Assembly (NCBI RefSeq): GCF_001418335.1
Contig: NZ_LIPP01000036.1
Location: 1-64,000 of the forward strand
Direction of reading: 5' to 3'
Length of the DNA stretch: 64,000 nt
Source of the DNA: Streptomyces aurantiacus
GTDB lineage: Bacteria > Actinomycetota > Actinomycetes > Streptomycetales > Streptomycetaceae
Both the position numbers and the translations under genes were made by a program. Below, piece after piece: positions 7,947 through 17,346 of this stretch (position 1 is its first letter; each line of letters begins with the position of its first letter). Under the pieces are notes generated by a model. It saw only the letters and a list, made by a program, of their open reading frames with translations, made no database searches and had not been told where the DNA came from.

Positions 7947-9386
7947 TCAGTCCGTGTAGACCTCGGCGCGGTCCACACTCACGAACGCCGCTCCGGACGC
8001 GGAGTTGCGTTCCCCGGTGACCCGGATCTGCACGGTGTGCGCGCCGTACGGCAGGCGTGGGCTGAGGTACTGAAGCGTCTCGCCGGTGCGGAGGGCGCCG
8101 TAGAAGTCGACGCGTTGTTCGGCGCCCCCGTCGACACGGATGCCCGCGATGCCGTTGCCGGTGTCCTCGACCGACAACAGCGCGAGCCTGGTGCCGGTGA
8201 AACTGATCGTCGCGGTGCTGCCGGCCTGGTCGCTCCAGTGGTCGTCGCTCCAGAAGCACTGGGCGGCGCAGCCCGTGCCCGAGTTCCAGGAACCCTGGTA
8301 CGTCACCGTGCCGTTGCCGCTGGACCGGCCGTCGTCGTTGATCCAGTGGTTGCCGGACCCGGGGTCACCGGCGGGCAGGTTCTGGGTGGCGCCCAGTGCG
8401 AGCGGCGTGCCGAGGTCCGGGCTGCCGTCGGCCTTCCAGCCGATCTTCTGGGCGCGGGTCGTACGGTTGGTGTACGTGAATTCCGTGGTGGTCTTGGCGT
8501 GGTAGATGATCCAGTCCTCCGTGCCGTCGGGGGAGCGGAAGAAGGCGTGGTGGCCGGGACCGAACACACCCCTGGCGTCGTTGCGTGAGAAGACGGCCCC
8601 GCTGTGCTGGGTCCAGTTGCCGGGCACCAGCGGGTCGGCCCCGTCGGGGAGCGACATCGTCCACACCTGGTAGTCGGGCTTGCCGGTGTCGCATGCCGAG
8701 TACGTCATCCACGTACGGCCGTTGCGGTTCAGGAACTCCGGGCCCTCACGGACCTCCGGGCAGCCGCCGGCCCCGTTGAGTGCCACGGCGTTGCCGGAGA
8801 CGGTGTAGGGGTTCGACATGGGCGCGATGTTCAGGCCGTTGTGCTGATAGGCGTTGATGCCGCTGTAGGCGAGGTACAGCCTGCCGTTGTGCTGGAGGAT
8901 GCCTGGGTCGATGGCGAAGTCGTTCGTGTGGTTGGGCGGGGTGAGCTTCGCCTTGAAGTGGTACGGCCCGGCCGGGTTGTCACCGGCCGACTCCAGGACG
9001 TACAGCCGGTGGTGGTCGTCCACTCCGTCATCGGCCGTGTAGTACATGTACCAGCGGCTGTCGAAGCGGTAGAACTCGGCTGCCCAGATGTGCTGATTGC
9101 GCGAGGCGTCGGTGTCCGTCCACACCGTGATCGGCTCGGCGTCGAGCAGGGTGCTCAGTGACGGCGAGCGCCACATCTTGATGCTGCCGCCCTGTGTGGT
9201 GGTGAGGTGGTAGGCGCCGTTCGCGTACGTCATGAACGGGTCCGGGCCTGTGTTGAGCGGATTGCGGAAGGTCCCGGATGCCGCTGCTGTTGTCGGTGTC
9301 GCGGACGTGGCCTGCGGCGCACAGAGCAGGCCGACCAGCAGGGCGAACAGGGTGGTCATCAAGGTGGCGACGGACCGAGCGCGCAT
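7947..9386 (-). CDS. secreted glycoside hydrolase family 43 protein (arabinofuranosidase/arabinanase-like)
   Basis: Exported enzyme of 479 residues. The start at 9386 is chosen because GGGAG lies 6 bases upstream and it gives a clean signal peptide (MRARSVATLMTTLFALLVGLL, cleavage after ATSA or nearby). The five-bladed propeller begins TFRNPLNTGPDPFMTYANG, the usual GH43 opening with its catalytic-base Asp. The central Asp (FAIDPGILQHNG) and the acid Glu (CPEVREGPEFL) are also visible. A C-terminal beta-sandwich follows from about residue 360 (GTVTYQGSWN to DRAEVYTD), probably carbohydrate-binding. Candidate substrates are arabinan or arabinoxylan side chains. A perfect 14-bp palindrome and a run of nine G lie in its upstream region. 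Confidence 0.88.
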   Translation of the reverse strand: MRARSVATLMTTLFALLVGLLCAPQATSATPTTAAASGTFRNPLNTGPDPFMTYANGAYHLTTTQGGSIKMWRSPSLSTLLDAEPITVWTDTDASRNQHIWAAEFYRFDSRWYMYYTADDGVDDHHRLYVLESAGDNPAGPYHFKAKLTPPNHTNDFAIDPGILQHNGRLYLAYSGINAYQHNGLNIAPMSNPYTVSGNAVALNGAGGCPEVREGPEFLNRNGRTWMTYSACDTGKPDYQVWTMSLPDGADPLVPGNWTQHSGAVFSRNDARGVFGPGHHAFFRSPDGTEDWIIYHAKTTTEFTYTNRTTRAQKIGWKADGSPDLGTPLALGATQNLPAGDPGSGNHWINDDGRSSGNGTVTYQGSWNSGTGCAAQCFWSDDHWSDQAGSTATISFTGTRLALLSVEDTGNGIAGIRVDGGAEQRVDFYGALRTGETLQYLSPRLPYGAHTVQIRVTGERNSASGAAFVSVDRAEVYTD

Positions 9387-9425
9387 CAACTGCTCCCAAT
9401 GTCTCTTGAGGTGCCTTGTGTGTGT

Positions 9426-9434
9426 GGGGGGGGG
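9426..9434. repeat. run of nine G in the GH43 leader
   Basis: Nine consecutive G (C on the coding strand) start 40 bases upstream of the GH43 start codon, followed by GGAGGGAGG-like purines. Runs of this length are prone to slippage, so leader length or expression could vary between cells. Confidence 0.7.
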
Positions 9435-9487
9435 AGGGAGGTGGACAGCACGACATGAGCTGGTGGTCACCCATGGCACCACGGTGA

Positions 9488-9501
9488 TTACATCGATGTA
9501 A
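9488..9501. promoter_or_regulatory. perfect 14-bp palindrome upstream of GH43 (LacI/GntR-type operator)
   Basis: TTACATCGATGTAA reads the same on both strands. Its centre is about 108 bases upstream of the GH43 start. The size and the central CG step fit a LacI- or GntR-family operator. No regulator of those families is encoded nearby, so a distant regulator is implied. Confidence 0.55.
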
Positions 9502-9531
9502 AGAGCGGCGTGGCGAGCGATTCCGACGTGC

Positions 9532-10698
9532 CTACTGTTCGCCCAACTTCGTCGCGCCGTGGTCCACCTCGGCGCCCGAGCGTCGTACGCCGGTGAAGCG
9601 AGTGGGCCGGAAGGCGCCGAGGAGGGCCTGTTCCTGATCGGTCGTGATCTCGGTCGCGGCCAGCCGCCCCAGAATCGGCGCGAGGGTGACGCCGCTGTGC
9701 GAGACGAGGCAGTAGACGCGGGAGTGTCCGGCGGCGTAACCGGCGATGGTGTGGCCGTCCGCCGGCAGTGATCTCAGACCGACCCGCAGGTCGATGTCCG
9801 GTGCCGGGACCGGCTCGGGCAGCAGCGCGGAGAACCGGCGGGCGAGAGTGCTCGCGATGTCGCCGCCGGCGGACGGCGGGTCCGCCGGATCGACCTCCGC
9901 GTTCAGGTCGAGCGCCTGCACGACCGCGCGACCGCCGCCCGCCGGGCGGACGTTGAGGCCGGGACTGTGGATCACGCAGCGCAGGTCGAGTCCCGGGAGG
10001 CCGACGTATCCGAGCAGACCGACCGTCGGTGAGCCGCGGCGGGAGTCCGTCACCATGGGGACGTCGATCCCCGCCCGCGCGGCGAGTTGTCGGGTCCAGC
10101 GGCCTGCCGCCAGGACGACTCGGTCGCCCCTGCGGACCGTGCCGTCGGCCAGGGTGACGGACACGCGGTCGGGTGTCTCCTCGATCTCCACGACCTCGCC
10201 GATCACGTACGCGGCTCCGTGGCGCTCGGCATCCGCCAGCAGGTTGCGCACGAAGAGGTCGGGCAGCACGTACCCCTCGCCGGGGAAGTGCGCGAGGGAC
10301 GTGATGGTCGCCGGAATCCGCAGGTCACCCGCGATCCGCGTGGCTTCGCCCGACGTGACCCGGTGCGTGGGGTAACCGAGGGACCGCAGTCGGGCCACGT
10401 TGTCGGCGAGCCACTGCTCGTTCGCGGCGTCCGCCCACTGCAACGCTCCGCTGGGGAAGTACGCCGCCGCACCGGGCAGTTGTCGGGCGAGCCTCGCATG
10501 CTCTTCCATCCCCGCGAGGCCGAGCCGGTGGTAGTCGGGGTCGAGCCTGCGGTACGAGTTGGTCCAGGCGAAGGTGGTCCCGCTCGTACCCGTGCCGGCG
10601 CCCCGCTGGTCGAGAAGGAGTACGTCTTCGCCGGCGAGGGCGAGCTGCCGCGCGACGCTCACGCCGAGCACTCCGGCACCGATGACGATGACCTTCAT
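9532..10698 (-). CDS. FAD-dependent amino acid oxidoreductase (DadA/glycine-oxidase-like)
   Basis: Flavoprotein of 388 residues predicted to oxidise an amine or amino acid. The FAD-binding Rossmann motif starts at the N-terminus (MKVIVIGAGVLGVSVARQLA, then VLLLDQ), and the DAO fold continues with GTSGTTFAWTNSYR. A second dinucleotide-fold end is seen near GLRSLPADGHTIAGY. The ATG at 10698 follows GGAGGGAGCC and places the GxGxxG at residues 8-13; longer in-frame starts add Pro/Gly-rich sequence with no homology look. It lies 195 bases downstream of the reductase-M20 fusion on the same strand, so it may be the last gene of that unit or have its own promoter. Confidence 0.87.
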   Translation of the reverse strand: MKVIVIGAGVLGVSVARQLALAGEDVLLLDQRGAGTGTSGTTFAWTNSYRRLDPDYHRLGLAGMEEHARLARQLPGAAAYFPSGALQWADAANEQWLADNVARLRSLGYPTHRVTSGEATRIAGDLRIPATITSLAHFPGEGYVLPDLFVRNLLADAERHGAAYVIGEVVEIEETPDRVSVTLADGTVRRGDRVVLAAGRWTRQLAARAGIDVPMVTDSRRGSPTVGLLGYVGLPGLDLRCVIHSPGLNVRPAGGGRAVVQALDLNAEVDPADPPSAGGDIASTLARRFSALLPEPVPAPDIDLRVGLRSLPADGHTIAGYAAGHSRVYCLVSHSGVTLAPILGRLAATEITTDQEQALLGAFRPTRFTGVRRSGAEVDHGATKLGEQ

Positions 10699-10893: not shown

Positions 10894-13152
10894 TCAGCCG
10901 GCGGCCAGCGAGCCCAGTACCGTGGCGGCCAGCGCGGCACGTGCGACCATGCCGGACACCGAGGTGTTCTCCGAGCGGGCGTGCGCGCCCGAGCCGACCG
11001 CCCCGATGCCGTCCAGGACCGGTGTGCCCGCGGCCACGACGAAGTTCCCGTCGCTCGCCCCGCCGACGGACACCTCCCGCAGCTCCTCTCCCAGCAGTGC
11101 CGCGCACCGGCGGGCCAACTCCGCGAGCGCCGCGACCTGTTCGGTCCGCTCGAAGACGGGACGGTTCCAGTCCCCGGTGACCTCGACGCGGGTCCGCGGA
11201 TCCACCGGGCGCAGGGCGGCCAGGGCGTCGGTGACGCGCTTCTGCTCGGCCGCGGAGGCGACGCGTACGTCGATGCGGCCGACGGCACGTCCCGCGGTGA
11301 CGTTGCTCCGGGTGCCGCCCTCCACCACGCCCACGTTGAGCGAGGTGCCCGCGTCCGGGTCGCGCAGTTGGGCCAGGCGCAGGATCTGGTGGGCGAGTTC
11401 GTCCACCGCGCTCGCCCCGGCGGTGGGGTCGAGTCCCGCGTGGGCCTCGCTGCCGGTGACCGTGACGGTGAACAGTCCCACACCCTTGCGGGCCGTCTTG
11501 ATCGCGCCGTCGGCGGCCGCCTCGAAGACCATGGCGAGCCTGCTGCCGTGGGACTCCGCGACGACGGCCTCGTGGGAGGCGAGGCTGCCGGTCTCCTCGT
11601 CGCCGTTCAGCATCAGTGTGCAGGCCGGCCGGGGCAGGCCCAGGGTGTCGAGGGCGCGCAGGGCCCACACCGCCTGCACGAGACCGGCCTTCATGTCGAA
11701 GACGCCGGGCCCGCTGATGTGGTCGCCGTCCCGCGTGAAGGGCCAGGTGTCGAGGGTGCCGGTCGGCCAGACGGTGTCGTAGTGGCCGAGGAGCAGGACC
11801 GGCCGGCCGTCGTCGGCGGACGCGTTGCGGGCCGGGTAGCGGCGGACGAGGATGTCCCCCGCCTGCTCGCGGGGGAGGGTCTCCTCGGCGTCCGGCGCGC
11901 CCAGGCGCCGGTCGAGCCACTCGCGCAGCCAGCCGAGACAGGCGTCGAGGTCGTCCGGATCGTCGCTGGCACTGCCCTGGGAGGTGTACGCGTCGAGGTC
12001 GGCGACCATGTCCTCACGGTGCTCGTCGAGCCAGTCCCGGACCGCCGCGGCCTGGTCCGCTTCCGGCAGATGTCCGGGCACCGGGGCCTCTTCCGTGTCC
12101 GGCAGGACTCCGGGCACCGCTGGTCCGGCGAGCCGGTCCAGTTCCGCCAGCCGTGTCTCCGACATCCGGTGCGCGGCGCCCTCCAGTTCGCGCAGGCCGG
12201 CCATGACCGTGCGCAGGAGCGGCGCGGGCAGTCCTTCGCGGGCCGCGTGGCCGAGGACGTCGGCGTAGTGGGTGGTGACCTCCACGGGCCGATGGCGTAC
12301 GGCGAGGTCGCGCCAGATCCCGCTGCGGTCCTTCGTCTGCGTGCGCAGCCACGCGGTGAGGCGGTCGAAGGCGGCGTCGCGGTCCGCCGGGTCGGCTCCC
12401 CGCCGGAACGGGTGGGGGTCGAAGGCGTCGAAGGCCTCCAGGGTGACGCCGAGCCGGTCGGAGACGGCGAAGATCTCACCGGTCAGCGCGGCCATGGCGG
12501 GCCGGTGCCGGTCGATGAGGTCGGCCATGGGGGCGTCGGCGAGGGCCGTGGCGGCGAGCATCGCGCCGAAGCCGGCCTTGGCCCAGAGGTACCCCTCCAC
12601 GTTGTCGCAGGCCACGGCCGGACCCCAGCTCTGCAGGTCGGCGACGAGTGCGCCGACGCGCGGGCTGACCGGCGCCCCGTCGGGCTCGCCGACGACGACG
12701 GCGCCGGCGCCGCCGTCCAGGACGACGCCCGGTTCGACGACGTCGGCGAAGATGTTCACGAACGCGGCGACGGTGCGGTGGGCGCCCACGTGCTCGGCGA
12801 TCAGGGCCTCGTTGAAGCCGTTCTGGAAGGAGGCGACATAGCCGTCCGGGTCCAGGTGGGGCGCGATCCATGCGGCCGCGGTGGCCGTGGCCTGCGCCTT
12901 CACGGCCAGCAGGACCCGTCCGAGGGTGCCGGAGAACTCGTCCGGGGTGGTGGCCGTGACGGGCACGGCGGTACGGGTGTCGCCGTGCGCGACGACGAGT
13001 CCGCCCGCGCGGATCGCGGCCACGTGGGCGGGGTCGGTGTCGACGACGGTGACCGGGTGGCCGGCGCGCGCCAGGGCGAAGGCGAGCGTGCCGCCGATCG
13101 CGCCCCCGCCGACGACGGTGTAGGCGGCCCGCTGCGGGGAGGGGTCGGTCAT
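10894..13152 (-). CDS. fusion of a ketopantoate-reductase-like domain and an M20-family metallopeptidase
   Basis: One 752-residue reading frame joins two enzymes. Residues 1 to about 345 resemble ApbA/PanE ketopantoate reductases: a nucleotide loop GGGAIGG at 15-21, the VKAQ lysine near 84, QNGFNEA at 110-116 and an EGYLWAKAGFGA helix where the usual KLxxN asparagine is missing. Residues about 360-752 are an M20 aminoacylase/carboxypeptidase with its metal set: His457 (GHYDTVW), Asp486 (FDMKAG), Glu519-Glu520 (GDEETG), Glu544 (FEAAAD) and a C-terminal His (GAHARSEN). The linker is a predicted helical stretch. The ATG overlaps the stop of the SDR gene as ATGA. Together with the flanking genes it probably processes an imported N-substituted amino acid or related amide. 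Confidence 0.85.
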   Translation of the reverse strand: MTDPSPQRAAYTVVGGGAIGGTLAFALARAGHPVTVVDTDPAHVAAIRAGGLVVAHGDTRTAVPVTATTPDEFSGTLGRVLLAVKAQATATAAAWIAPHLDPDGYVASFQNGFNEALIAEHVGAHRTVAAFVNIFADVVEPGVVLDGGAGAVVVGEPDGAPVSPRVGALVADLQSWGPAVACDNVEGYLWAKAGFGAMLAATALADAPMADLIDRHRPAMAALTGEIFAVSDRLGVTLEAFDAFDPHPFRRGADPADRDAAFDRLTAWLRTQTKDRSGIWRDLAVRHRPVEVTTHYADVLGHAAREGLPAPLLRTVMAGLRELEGAAHRMSETRLAELDRLAGPAVPGVLPDTEEAPVPGHLPEADQAAAVRDWLDEHREDMVADLDAYTSQGSASDDPDDLDACLGWLREWLDRRLGAPDAEETLPREQAGDILVRRYPARNASADDGRPVLLLGHYDTVWPTGTLDTWPFTRDGDHISGPGVFDMKAGLVQAVWALRALDTLGLPRPACTLMLNGDEETGSLASHEAVVAESHGSRLAMVFEAAADGAIKTARKGVGLFTVTVTGSEAHAGLDPTAGASAVDELAHQILRLAQLRDPDAGTSLNVGVVEGGTRSNVTAGRAVGRIDVRVASAAEQKRVTDALAALRPVDPRTRVEVTGDWNRPVFERTEQVAALAELARRCAALLGEELREVSVGGASDGNFVVAAGTPVLDGIGAVGSGAHARSENTSVSGMVARAALAATVLGSLAAG

Positions 13153-13964
13153 GGGGTGGGTCCTTCCGTGGTGGCGGCCGAGGCCGCGAGCGGGGTGGCA
13201 CGGGTGTCGCCGGGCTGCCAGATGCGGGGCAGGTGCAGTGCGCCCGTACTGGACCCGCCGTCCACCCGCAGGACCTCCCCGGTGATCCAGGAGGCGTCCG
13301 GGCCCGCGATCCAGCACACCGCGCGGGCGATGTCCCGCGGACTGCCGGGGCGGCCCAGCGGGTTGGCGCCGATGGCCGCGGCGTACTCGGCGGAGACGGG
13401 GTTGCAGTCGCTGGACACCTGGACGAACCCGGGGCTCACCGCGTTGACGCGGATGCCGTGCTCACCCAGTTCCAGGGCTGCGGCGCGGGTGGCCATCTCC
13501 AGGGCCGCCTTGGAACTCGCGTACGGGCCGCCGCCGGGGCGGGACCGCAGCGCCGAACCGGAGGAGATGTTGACGACCGCGCCGGGCCGCCCGCCCGCCA
13601 CGGCGAGCCGGGCGAACGCGGCGGTCGTGAGCACCGGAGCGCGCAGGTTGACGGCGAACAGCCGGTCCCAGGCGCGGGCGTCGACCTCGGCCATGTCCAG
13701 GGACGGATAGACACCGGCCGCGTTGACCAGGACGTCCACGGGGCCGCGAGCCGCCCAGGCCTCCTCGACCAGGGCGGCGGGCGCGTCCGGTTCTGCGAGG
13801 TCCGCGGCATGCGCCGCCGCTCCGCCGCCCAGCCGTGCCGCGGTCCGTTCCAGTGCCTCGGGATCGCGGTCGGAGAGAGTGAGCAGCGCACCCTGAGCGG
13901 CGAACTCCTCGGCCACCGCTCCGCCGATACCGCCCGCGGCACCGGTGACGAGTACGTGCGCCAT
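13149..13964 (-). CDS. short-chain dehydrogenase/reductase
   Basis: Classical SDR of 271 residues. The cofactor motif TGAAGGIGG is at residues 7-15, NAAG follows in VDVLVNAAGVYPS, the catalytic Ser lies in VVNISSGSAL, and YASSK supplies Tyr and Lys. Asp after the second strand (LTLSDRDPEAL) suggests NAD(H) preference. The C-terminal tail after VDGGSSTGALHLP is about 25 residues longer than usual. The start overlaps the stop of the upstream transporter by one base, and the stop overlaps the downstream fusion gene by four, so all three are translationally coupled. Confidence 0.9.
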   Translation of the reverse strand: MAHVLVTGAAGGIGGAVAEEFAAQGALLTLSDRDPEALERTAARLGGGAAAHAADLAEPDAPAALVEEAWAARGPVDVLVNAAGVYPSLDMAEVDARAWDRLFAVNLRAPVLTTAAFARLAVAGGRPGAVVNISSGSALRSRPGGGPYASSKAALEMATRAAALELGEHGIRVNAVSPGFVQVSSDCNPVSAEYAAAIGANPLGRPGSPRDIARAVCWIAGPDASWITGEVLRVDGGSSTGALHLPRIWQPGDTRATPLAASAATTEGPTP

Positions 13965-15292
13965 CAGTCGAACTCCTTGTCCTTGGTCTCCGGCATCGTG
14001 AGGTAGACGACGAGGGAGACGAGCGCCGCGCCGGACACGTAGATCCACAGCAGGTCGCTGTGGCCGCTCTCGTGCAGCCAGGTGGTGAGATAGGGCGCCG
14101 TGCCGCCGAACACGGCCACCGCCAGGGCGTAGGGCAGGGCGATGCCGGTGGCGCGTACCTCCGCCGGGAACTGCTCCGCCATGATGACGGCACAGTTGGC
14201 CGAGTAGCCGAGGATCAGCAGCATTCCGACGAGCTGTACCAGGAACAGGCTGAGGAAGCTGCCGCTGAGCAGGTGCAGCAGGGGCCAGGCCAGGACGACG
14301 AAGCCGCCGGCGAAGGCCGCCATGGTCGGCTTGCGCCCGACCCGGTCGGAGAGCAGCCCGGCGAACGGCAGCGCGACGACGAAGACGACCAGGCACAGCG
14401 TCTGCGACAGCAGGGCGGTTCTCAGTGGGATGCCGGTGGTCAGATTCGCGTACGTGGGCAGGTAGTTGACCCAGATGTAGTAGGTCAGGGTGCCCGCGAT
14501 CGTGATGCCGGCGACGCGCAGGGTCGCCGCGGGGTGTTCGACGAACATCGTCTTGACGGGGTTGGTACGGGTACGGCCCGCGCCCTGGGCCTGGGTGAAG
14601 GACTCGGTGTCCGCGACGGAGACCCGCAGCCACAGACCGACCAGGCCGAGGAGGCCGCCGAAGACGAACGCGGCACGCCAGCCCCAGGAGTGCACGGCGT
14701 CGTCGCTCAGCACCGAGGTGGTGAGGGTGCCCAGGAGGGAGGCGATGAGGACGCCGCCCGCGACCGACACCTGCTGCCACGACCCGGCGAACGCGCGCCT
14801 GCCGCGGGCGGCCGACTCCACGAGGAAGGCGGAGGACGAGCCGAATTCGCCTCCCGCGGAGAAGCCCTGCACGAGCCGGGCGAGGAGCAGCAGGAGCGGC
14901 GACAGGACGCCGATGGCCTCGTAGTTCGGAGTGATCGCGATCAGGAAGCCGGCGCCCGCCATGAGGGCGACCGTGAGCGTCATGCCCTTCTTGCGTCCGC
15001 GGCGGTCGGCGTAGGCGCCGAGCACGGCGGCGCCGACCGGGCGCATCACGAAGCCGACCGCGAACACGGCGAGCGTGGACAGCAGGGCCACCGCTCCGTC
15101 GCCCTTGGGGAAGAACTCGTCGGCGATGATCTTGGCGAAGATGGAGTACAGGGCCCAGTCGACCCATTCGACGGTGTTGCCGATGGTGCCGGCGACGATG
15201 GCCTTGCGCTGGGCGCCGCTCAGTCTGCCGGGGGCGGCGGGGCCGCCGTCCTTGTGCAGGGAGCCGGCGGGTGCGGCGGATCCGGTGTTCAT
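13964..15292 (-). CDS. MFS transporter, metabolite:H+ symporter (MHS) type
   Basis: Membrane importer of 442 residues with twelve predicted helices. The opening KAIVAGTIGNTVEWVDWALYSIFAK is typical of the MHS group (ShiA, KgtP, ProP), as is the loop GAYADRRGRKKGM between helices 2 and 3. Such transporters bring organic acids, shikimate-like or betaine-like solutes in with protons. The ATG overlaps the stop of the deacetylase gene as ATGA. Its position inside the coupled operon makes it the probable uptake step for the compound degraded by the neighbouring enzymes. Confidence 0.9.
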   Translation of the reverse strand: MNTGSAAPAGSLHKDGGPAAPGRLSGAQRKAIVAGTIGNTVEWVDWALYSIFAKIIADEFFPKGDGAVALLSTLAVFAVGFVMRPVGAAVLGAYADRRGRKKGMTLTVALMAGAGFLIAITPNYEAIGVLSPLLLLLARLVQGFSAGGEFGSSSAFLVESAARGRRAFAGSWQQVSVAGGVLIASLLGTLTTSVLSDDAVHSWGWRAAFVFGGLLGLVGLWLRVSVADTESFTQAQGAGRTRTNPVKTMFVEHPAATLRVAGITIAGTLTYYIWVNYLPTYANLTTGIPLRTALLSQTLCLVVFVVALPFAGLLSDRVGRKPTMAAFAGGFVVLAWPLLHLLSGSFLSLFLVQLVGMLLILGYSANCAVIMAEQFPAEVRATGIALPYALAVAVFGGTAPYLTTWLHESGHSDLLWIYVSGAALVSLVVYLTMPETKDKEFD

Positions 15293-16245
15293 GGCGTCTG
15301 CTCCGGGGCTTCGGGGACGGAACGGGCGGTGGTCCGGCCGGCCGGCACGGCGCGGGCCGTGTCGGCGAGCTGGGCGTGCGTGGCGTACCAGACGCCGGAG
15401 TGGGCGGCGATGTGGTCGAGGAGTCCGCGCAGCGCCACCAGGCGCGAGCGGTGGCCGATGACGTGCGGGTGCAGGGTGAGCTGGAAGACACCGCCGTCCC
15501 GGTACGCGGCGTCGAATTCGTCGGTCCAGATCTCCAGCACGTCACGCGGGCGGCTGTGCGGGCGCACGGAGCCGTAGCGGTCCATCGTGAAGTACGGGGC
15601 GTCGTCCCGGATCCAGTCCACCGGGATCTCGACCAGACCGGTGGGCCTGCCGTCGGCGACGATCTCGTAGGGCTCGTCGTCGGCCATCAGCGAGGAGTCG
15701 TAGGCGAAGCCGAGTTCGAGCATGATGTCGAGCGTGGAGTCCGAGAAGTCCCAGGACGGCGTGCGGATTCCGACGGGCCGCTGCCCGGTCAGGGTGTCGA
15801 GGGTGTCGAGGGCGCGTGCGGTCAGCTCCCGCTCGTCGTCGCGGCCGAGCAGCATGTTGCGCTCGTGGATCCAGCCGTGGACGGCCAGTTCGTGCCCGTC
15901 ACGGGTGTACGCGCGCGCCTCCTCGGGGTGGACCAGGGCGGAGACCGCCGGCATGAAGAACGTCGCGGGCACGCCGTGCCGGGCGAGGAGGTCCAGGATC
16001 CGGGGTGCGCCGACGCGGGCCCCGTACTCGCCCTGGGCGAGGCGGCCGGGGCTGGTCTCGCCGTCGCGCAGCGGGATCGTCTCGTGGTCGGAGTCGAAGG
16101 ACAGGGCGACCGCGACCCGGGCGCCGCCGGGCCAGCGGTCGGGGACCAGCCGGCGTCCGGCACGCACGGCGTCGAGGTGACCGCGCCAGGTCTGTTCGGT
16201 CCAGCGCCAGCTCTCGGCGGGCAGGCCGGAGTCGTCTGTGGGCAT
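15289..16245 (-). CDS. polysaccharide deacetylase-fold hydrolase (NodB/PuuE-like)
   Basis: Metal-dependent hydrolase of 318 residues without a signal peptide. The NodB-fold metal motif appears as ALSFDSDHETI (Asp-Asp equivalent) and HGWIHERN (His-x3-His type), with the catalytic-base region RTPSWDFSD and the late motif QLTLHPHVIGHRSR. Cytosolic members of this fold include allantoinase PuuE and cyclic imide hydrolases rather than cell-wall deacetylases. The neighbours (importer, SDR, M20 amidohydrolase, amino acid oxidase) fit opening of a cyclic amide or imide followed by side-chain degradation. That pathway is an inference; the fold assignment is firm. Confidence 0.85.
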   Translation of the reverse strand: MPTDDSGLPAESWRWTEQTWRGHLDAVRAGRRLVPDRWPGGARVAVALSFDSDHETIPLRDGETSPGRLAQGEYGARVGAPRILDLLARHGVPATFFMPAVSALVHPEEARAYTRDGHELAVHGWIHERNMLLGRDDERELTARALDTLDTLTGQRPVGIRTPSWDFSDSTLDIMLELGFAYDSSLMADDEPYEIVADGRPTGLVEIPVDWIRDDAPYFTMDRYGSVRPHSRPRDVLEIWTDEFDAAYRDGGVFQLTLHPHVIGHRSRLVALRGLLDHIAAHSGVWYATHAQLADTARAVPAGRTTARSVPEAPEQTP

Positions 16246-16338: not shown

Positions 16339-17346
16339 TCAGGTGGGGCGGACCATCCGGTGCCAGGAGTACTTCATGGTGACGAGGTGCAGCGTCACGT
16401 CGGAGGCGAGCAGTCCCGGCAGCGCTCCGATGACGTCGCTGGTGTAGTGGAAGAGGTCGGCACGGCGGGGCAGCACCATGTGCCCGACGAGGTTGAAGCG
16501 CCCGGTCGCCGCGCTGAGGAACTTCGTTCCCGGATGCCGGGCGAGCTGCCGTCCCGCGGCGTCGAGCCGGTCGGGCTCGATCGACAGCCAGACCATGAAC
16601 TCGGCGTCGTACCCGAGCAGTGCCGGTTCGACGAGCGTGCGGAACTGCAGGACACCGCGGGAGATGAGCCGGTCCATGGCCCGCGCGACGCTGGACTCGG
16701 TGTGCCCCAGACTCCGGGCCAGGGCGCTGACCTGGGTGCGGCCGTCCTGCTTGAGCGCCGCGACGACCGCCTGCTCCAGGGCGGTGAGCGCTTGTGGCGT
16801 CACGTCCCAGTCGGCGCGGTCGCAGGAGGACGCCAGGGAGTCGGGCCGCAGGTCGGCAGCCGCCTCGGCGGGCAGCAGCCCGGTGTCCCACATCGACGCG
16901 GAGGTGAACGCGCGGATGACCGGTACGGCCTCGGTGCTGGTGATGAGGTCGGCCGCGGGCAGGTCGGTGAAGAGCATCCGCATCATCTCCTCGTTGTCCC
17001 GGGCGACGAAGTCGACGACGAGATCGGCGGAGCCGGTGACGACGGCCACGAAACGCACGTCCGGACTGGCGGTGAGCCGGTCCGCGGCCTCCAGACCACG
17101 ACCGGGTCTGGCCTGTACCCGGACGAGCATGGAGGATCCCTCCCGCGTCCGGTCCAGCTCCAGGGTGCCGACGACCCGCAGCAGGCCCCGCTCGCGCAGG
17201 GCACGGTAGCGCCGCTGGGCGGTCGTCTCGCTGGCGCCCACCCACCGCGCCACGGCGCTCCACGGGGCACGACCGTTGAGCTGGAGCGCGGCGATGATGC
17301 GCCGGTCCAGTTCGTCGATGCTCTCCACGGGAGCCGGCTGGTTCAT
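16339..17346 (-). CDS. Lrp/AsnC-type regulator with two tandem modules
   Basis: Transcription factor of 335 residues, about twice the normal Lrp length, containing two copies of the AsnC winged helix. The first lies at about residues 8-60 (SIDELDRRIIAALQLNGRAPW), with a sensor domain after it. The second lies at about 170-220 (ALTALEQAVVAALKQDGRTQV), with its own sensor. Such tandem proteins are known in actinobacteria. The start at 17346 has no ribosome site but lies 7 bases after a -10 box, so the mRNA is probably leaderless. It is the first gene of the operon and presumably senses the substrate or an amino acid product. Confidence 0.88.
   Translation of the reverse strand: MNQPAPVESIDELDRRIIAALQLNGRAPWSAVARWVGASETTAQRRYRALRERGLLRVVGTLELDRTREGSSMLVRVQARPGRGLEAADRLTASPDVRFVAVVTGSADLVVDFVARDNEEMMRMLFTDLPAADLITSTEAVPVIRAFTSASMWDTGLLPAEAAADLRPDSLASSCDRADWDVTPQALTALEQAVVAALKQDGRTQVSALARSLGHTESSVARAMDRLISRGVLQFRTLVEPALLGYDAEFMVWLSIEPDRLDAAGRQLARHPGTKFLSAATGRFNLVGHMVLPRRADLFHYTSDVIGALPGLLASDVTLHLVTMKYSWHRMVRPT

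Follow-up and report, generated by a model that had tools for sequence, protein, structure and literature searches.

Results

A reductase-amidohydrolase fusion at the end of an overlapping operon

The window, a 64,000-nucleotide stretch of a Streptomyces aurantiacus contig, carries a gene in which a domain of the ketopantoate reductase (KPR) family is continuous with an M20 amidohydrolase. This gene is the last of an overlapping operon that runs in the order PDA, MFS, SDR and fusion. The features are listed below, and each neighbour was counted over 45 loci in named bacterial genomes, with more than 45% identity required.

10894..13152, minus strand: KPR-like/M20 fusion gene, 752 aa (open reading frame and Pfam)
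12127..13131, minus strand: N-terminal half, residues 8-342, KPR-fold dehydrogenase (Pfam, AlphaFold2, PanE alignment)
12061..12126, minus strand: linker, residues 343-364, of low pLDDT, weakly constrained and differing in length among relatives
10897..12060, minus strand: C-terminal half, residues 365-752, predicted M20 amidohydrolase of carboxypeptidase G2 (CPG2) type (Pfam, Foldseek, residue alignment)
13149..13964, minus strand: short-chain dehydrogenase (SDR), present in 43/45 loci
13964..15292, minus strand: MFS transporter of the metabolite:H+ symporter type, present in 43/45 loci
15289..16245, minus strand: polysaccharide-deacetylase-fold protein (PDA), present in 42/45 loci
16339..17346, minus strand: Lrp/AsnC-type regulator with two HTH/ligand modules, present in 35/45 loci

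The fusion frame extends on the minus strand from ATG at 13152-13150 to TGA at 10896-10894 and comprises 752 codons with zero internal stops. Its start overlaps the stop codon of the SDR gene as ATGA; the PDA and MFS genes overlap in the same manner, and MFS and SDR share one base. A longer alternative frame begins at GTG 13317 (807 aa) and extends back across the SDR gene. The MFS protein scores 381 bits against TIGR00883, below the cut-off of 443. The operon is conserved among the 45 loci: two that lie at contig ends (L044, L052) and one with a changed frame (L051) are the only ones to lack PDA, MFS or SDR. An FAD-dependent oxidoreductase of the DAO family lies directly downstream in the window (9532-10698, minus strand). 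It was rejected as a member of the system, since tblastn at E 1e-12 found no match in any of the 45 loci, and it is probably only a local neighbour.

Pfam assigns ApbA (residues 12-158, 91.3 bits) and ApbA_C (184-324, 30.2 bits) to the N-terminal half, and Peptidase_M20 (453-746, 80.6 bits) and M20_dimer (553-646, 61.7 bits) to the C-terminal half, all four above their curated cut-offs. AlphaFold2, run with an alignment of 33 relatives, gave two confident blocks with a mean pLDDT of 87.7 and low confidence at residues 1-7 and 345-357. The pTM of 0.53 means that the relative placement of the two halves is not fixed by the model. In Foldseek searches against the PDB, the N-terminal half matched the KPR-family chain 3hwr (TMt 0.88), and the best structure match of the C-terminal half was carboxypeptidase G2 (1cg2, TMt 0.86). 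The fused protein is genuine and both of its folds are complete, in line with the initial annotation.

The fusion is maintained across genomes and has one origin on the rows tested

At 39 of the 45 loci the reductase and M20 parts share one open frame. Most homologues are therefore fused in frame rather than split into two ORFs, which excludes the missed stop or frameshift considered in the initial annotation and upholds its 752-codon fusion. At four further loci the two parts are separate ORFs overlapping by 4 bases: L067 and L068 (Saccharopolyspora), L069 (Amycolatopsis acidicola) and L072 (Streptomyces sp. 8L), with overlaps of GTGA, ATGA, GTGA and TTGA, respectively, when the nearest start is taken. 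Amycolatopsis sacchari (L071) has the reductase without the hydrolase. In S. niphimycinicus (L051/L027) the frame changes near reductase residue 166, and PDA, MFS and SDR are all missing alongside; this is a decaying copy outside its operon. In genome G148 (L025/L026) the fusion is split over two large contigs, one with residues 190-750 and the other with residues 1-205, and the latter contig also bears short SDR, PDA and regulator pieces. A survey of 150 Streptomyces genomes found the full-length fusion in five, including that of the window, and broken copies in two; the fusion is an accessory gene in this genus. Some of the surveyed genomes recur among the 45 loci (L024/L042 and L027/L051; L093/L055 is a further such pair).

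A concatenated tree of 34 rows (27 of the 39 fused loci, the window and six separate-gene loci, with L085 and L071 omitted) placed the 28 fused rows in one clade (98/95) beside Saccharopolyspora. The tree made from the KPR part only, with rows L051, L042, L021, L093, L030 and L031 omitted, did not separate the fused rows from Saccharopolyspora (30% of 200 bootstrap trees, with one change). On the rows tested, the M20 fusion had a single origin, and its best explanation is the joining of two neighbours in the operon whose reading frames overlapped.

Purifying selection acts on both halves. In eight pairwise comparisons their dN/dS was 0.17-0.37, whereas the short linker gave 0.36-1.2; one value was saturated. 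The spacing between the aligned halves varies from -17 (the alignments overlap) to 261 residues, and the frame is nonetheless kept. The linker of Streptomyces sp. HNM0575 (L065) has about 260 residues of low complexity, rich in Ala, Thr, Ser and Gly.

Many linkers contain in-frame start codons, through which internal initiation might yield two products from one frame. A 5-base ribosome-binding motif precedes the fusion's own start in 35 of 40 cases, but no ATG or GTG within a linker has one (0/40); for 4-base motifs the counts are 40/40 and 3/40. This distribution makes a separate hydrolase product unlikely. With the frame intact at so many loci, internal initiation and a sequencing or assembly artefact together are an extremely improbable account of the fusion.

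The reductase half has lost the residues that hold ketopantoate

Alignment with E. coli PanE identifies K192, N111 and E291 as the catalytic equivalents in the N-terminal half. Among 72 relatives, PanE Lys176 and Glu256 are kept in all and Asn98 in 71, with one gap. The substrate side is altered: G196 replaces PanE Asn180 and G278 replaces Ser244, the Asn184 column holds Ala in the window protein, and the Arg31 column holds Val. The Asn180 column is Gly in 71/72 relatives and Ala in 1/72; the Ser244 column is Gly in 72/72, with a Ser one column earlier. The motif reads K192-A-G-F-G196, so the Asn of KLxxN is indeed missing, as first noted from the letters. The roles of the PanE catalytic and ketopantoate-binding residues follow passages of PMC3478992 and PMC10127515. 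Since the ketopantoate-binding residues Asn180, Asn184 and Ser244 are replaced while the catalytic Lys and Glu remain, identity as ketopantoate reductase proper (EC 1.1.1.169) was rejected. Many plasmid records label relatives with this signature 2-dehydropantoate 2-reductase, and some assign them to pantothenate synthesis. These labels are contradicted by the residues, and judged by them the whole KPR subfamily is mis-annotated.

The same replacements weigh on another reading, that of a pantothenate-type catabolism in which the M20 half would split a pantoyl amide such as pantothenate itself, leaving pantoate to be oxidised by the KPR half. A KPR fold beside an amidohydrolase would suit such chemistry. 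However, the residues that hold ketopantoate in PanE are gone, and the PDA, asparaginase-type and peptide-transport partners described below fit it poorly, which leaves pantothenate catabolism very unlikely.

At the cofactor loop, Asp38 is invariant in 33/33 relatives and shares its column with the Asp of the D-mandelate dehydrogenase chains 8wl1, 8wl3 and 8wl4. One D-mandelate dehydrogenase of the KPR family with Asp in this column, 5x20, was solved with NADH according to its structure title. The shared Asp column suggests NAD use, and the N-terminal half is probably an NAD-linked enzyme. It is a candidate 2-hydroxy-acid/2-oxo-acid oxidoreductase of KPR fold that would act on a substrate other than ketopantoate.

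The hydrolase half resembles carboxypeptidase G2

The M20 residues H457, D459, D486, E519, E520, E544 and H724 are present in 44/44 fused rows, a few of which are the same genome twice, and the complete set of metal ligands reported at the outset thus stands. The two-metal ligand set and the catalytic Glu also occur in 7/7 separate-gene rows and in 13/13 standalone M20 rows; these residues are therefore markers of the family and no pointer to a special substrate. M20 enzymes are unusual catalysts for primary amides. The best NCBIfam model for this half is PRK07338, which reaches 234 bits where its cut-off demands 357. R664, present in 44/44 fused rows, is the equivalent of CPG2 Arg324, described in the relevant part of PMC6271292 as a carboxylate-binding residue. 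The fusion thus has the M20_dimer lid domain (553-646) together with an Arg of the carboxylate-binding type, and the C-terminal half is predicted to be a two-metal amidohydrolase of the carboxypeptidase G2 type.

The PDA neighbour has an HpPgdA-type active site

The PDA protein scores 181 bits against 3rxz, 147 against HpPgdA (3qbu) and 96 against PuuE. Its motifs FDSD at 50, HGWIH at 123 and LHPHV at 258 fit the HpPgdA metal site by motif matching (metal ligands from PMC3084791), so that an active site of this type, with an Asp pair, His-xxx-His and a distal His, is present. PuuE lacks the second metal His in the alignment. Because 3rxz and HpPgdA outscore PuuE and the second metal His is present, identity as a PuuE allantoinase is not favoured. 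The PDA protein may be a cyclic imide hydrolase by analogy, the comparison structure HpPgdA itself being without an assigned substrate. PDAs of this kind accommodate small molecules.

The PDA of the window is 58-60% identical to the PDAs of three alphaproteobacterial KPR-SDR-PDA runs. Relatives were found in 255 plasmid records. Among the eight stretches examined, an SDR gene is adjacent in six, hydantoinase/oxoprolinase genes occur in three, and no annotated KPR-type reductase lies beside the PDA gene in any (8/8). One of the plasmid stretches, from Methylobacterium currus (L113), holds a run of HyuB, HyuA, M20, amidohydrolase, MFS, PDA and SDR genes, which is probably a cyclic-amide degradation cluster with the same PDA-SDR pair.

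A sister clade of the reductase carries a different amide hydrolase

A class-level search of 394 genomes at E 1e-40 returned 11 matches: the window, one further M20 fusion, three loci with separate reductase and M20 genes, and six (L087-L092) in which a sister KPR is fused to an amidase-signature domain (PF01425). Pfam confirmed this domain in all four of the six that were tested; in the remaining two, whose open frames span 719 and 731 aa, tblastn locates it within the frame. The six KPR/amidase fusions form one clade (100/100) in the KPR-only tree, and they adjoin genes for a peptide-type ABC transporter, an asparaginase-type protein and an SDR. Several of their genomes are small, at 1.4-2.4 Mb. 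A plasmid search with the KPR/amidase fusion gave no such protein, as none of the records matched 80% of the query at a single site. A phylum search of 296 genomes added three matches with frames of 362-406 aa (L116-L118). At L085, one of the three loci with separate genes, an AbgT-family transporter gene (8455-10011) is inserted between KPR and M20, while the operon is otherwise similar; transporters of this family are tied to p-aminobenzoyl-glutamate.

Unfused KPR relatives in Deinococcus and Proteobacteria usually have SDR and amide hydrolase genes as neighbours, and dipeptide-type ABC transporters and M32 carboxypeptidase also lie beside unfused relatives. On plasmids, 33 records contain a reductase relative. 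Among the 13 loci examined, an SDR gene directly follows the KPR gene in 10, and in 8 the gene before it belongs to the creatininase family. Judged by tblastn and gene labels, M20 dipeptidase (5), PDA (5), asparaginase-type (4) and amidase (2) genes lie near KPR; at least one of these four is found in 10/13 loci, and they are absent near KPR in L095, L098 and L106 (3/13). The independent amidase fusion and the hydrolases beside unfused relatives show that this KPR subfamily is recurrently associated with amide hydrolysis.

These observations bear on whether the joining carries functional meaning. Neighbouring operon genes could have been joined by chance after the loss of a stop codon, so that the two activities would share a regulon or pathway without catalysing consecutive steps. 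Overlapping genes fuse easily, the linker varies widely under weak constraint, and AlphaFold2 shows no fixed arrangement of the domains, all of which agree with chance joining. Yet the frame is kept at 39/45 loci despite the changing spacing, and in the sister clade a reductase of this kind became joined to a hydrolase from an unrelated family. We consider chance joining rather unlikely, although it is the strongest competitor of a functional coupling.

Discussion

A candidate pathway for cyclic imides or hydroxy-acid amides

The reading that we favour, at a probability of about one half, is that the fusion is a bifunctional catabolic enzyme in an operon that imports and degrades a cyclic imide or amide and converts a hydroxy acid to an oxo acid. 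The MFS transporter would import the cyclic imide or amide, PDA would open the ring of the imported imide, and the M20 half would split the resulting half-amide. The KPR half would then convert the 2-hydroxy acid to a 2-oxo acid for central metabolism in an NAD-linked reaction, and the SDR might contribute another alcohol/carbonyl step. The last two steps may be reversed, with the dehydrogenase acting on the amide before its cleavage. The operon as a whole probably degrades imported cyclic imides or hydroxy-acid amides.

The initial annotation had placed the two activities in consecutive steps on one molecule, a view that is borne out in part. That they belong to one pathway is suggested by the shared and conserved operon, the overlapping separate genes in relatives and the independent amidase fusion; we infer this, and likewise the use of NAD, the classes of reaction, and their direction and sequence. 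Several observations count against the favoured reading. The KPR gene occurs without M20 at L071 and with none of the four hydrolases nearby at L095, L098 and L106, M20 enzymes are unusual catalysts for primary amides, AlphaFold2 fixes no domain arrangement, and none of the PDA-SDR pairs on plasmids (8/8 examined) has an annotated reductase. An amide with a carboxylate-bearing leaving group would suit the CPG2-like hydrolase as well as the dipeptide-type transporters found in relatives.

The same features could be read differently: the substrates may be N-(2-hydroxyacyl) amino acids, for instance those with a lactoyl or malyl group, or modified peptides, with PDA acting on a succinimide-like side product. 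A hydrolase of the CPG2 type fits this, as do the dipeptide-type ABC transporters, M32 carboxypeptidase, asparaginase-type protein and M20 dipeptidase beside unfused relatives. The Streptomyces operon, however, has an MFS protein of the metabolite:H+ symporter type and no peptide transporter, and PDA is kept at 42/45 loci. Modified peptides or hydroxyacyl amino acids are an unlikely alternative to the degradation of a cyclic imide or amide.

More tentatively, and with less assurance than the bifunctional enzyme itself, there may be a widespread undescribed pathway that acts on 2-hydroxyacyl amides or on cyclic imides bearing a hydroxyl group, made up of a non-ketopantoate KPR, an SDR and interchangeable amide hydrolases, with the dehydrogenase fused at least twice. 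If so, fusion to two unrelated hydrolases (M20 and amidase-signature) would imply a real gain from joined active sites, for example an unstable intermediate passed straight from one site to the other. That the KPR subfamily was joined independently to amide hydrolases of two unrelated families is a strong clue to its function, and the operon context narrows the candidate substrates to a short list. Both folds are known; no account of the fusion or the operon was found in the literature searched, which covered few subscription papers.

Comparison with known systems

With E. coli PanE/ApbA the N-terminal half shares the fold, GxGxxG and equivalents of Lys72, Asn98, Lys176, Asp248 and Glu256. It differs in Asn180 to Gly, Asn184 to Ala, Ser244 to Gly and Asp38 at the cofactor loop, and in its fusion to M20 within a catabolic-looking operon. 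D-mandelate dehydrogenases of the KPR family (3wfi, 5x20, 8wl1) share the fold (TMt 0.73-0.86) and the Asp in the Asp38 column, but they are unfused and about 20% identical, and the 8wl chains keep the Asn that is Gly here. Carboxypeptidase G2 (1cg2), which acts on folates, shares structure, metal ligands and the Arg324 equivalent with the C-terminal half, but it is a single enzyme of about 25% identity. The KPR/amidase-signature fusions share the subfamily signature and the joining to an amide hydrolase; their hydrolase is PF01425 rather than M20, and their KPR part is 37-43% identical.

The closest parallel in reaction types is the hxn nicotinate pathway of Aspergillus nidulans, in which an SDR, an HpPgdA-like imidase and an amide hydrolase lead to a 2-hydroxy acid. 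In the portion of PMC9304392 consulted, the SDR HxnW makes 3-hydroxypiperidine-2,6-dione, whose ring is opened by the imidase HxnM (nearest structure HpPgdA) to give alpha-hydroxyglutaramate, which the amidase HxnN turns into alpha-hydroxyglutarate; that portion names no KPR-type enzyme. The pathway is fungal and its amide hydrolase belongs to another family. Because HxnN is an unrelated amidase, the parallel is limited to reaction types. The upstream ring enzymes of hxn are absent from the Streptomyces operon, and the carboxylate-bearing leaving group favoured here differs from the hxn amide. The Streptomyces operon would thus combine the reaction types of hxn with a dehydrogenase of the 2-hydroxy-acid type.
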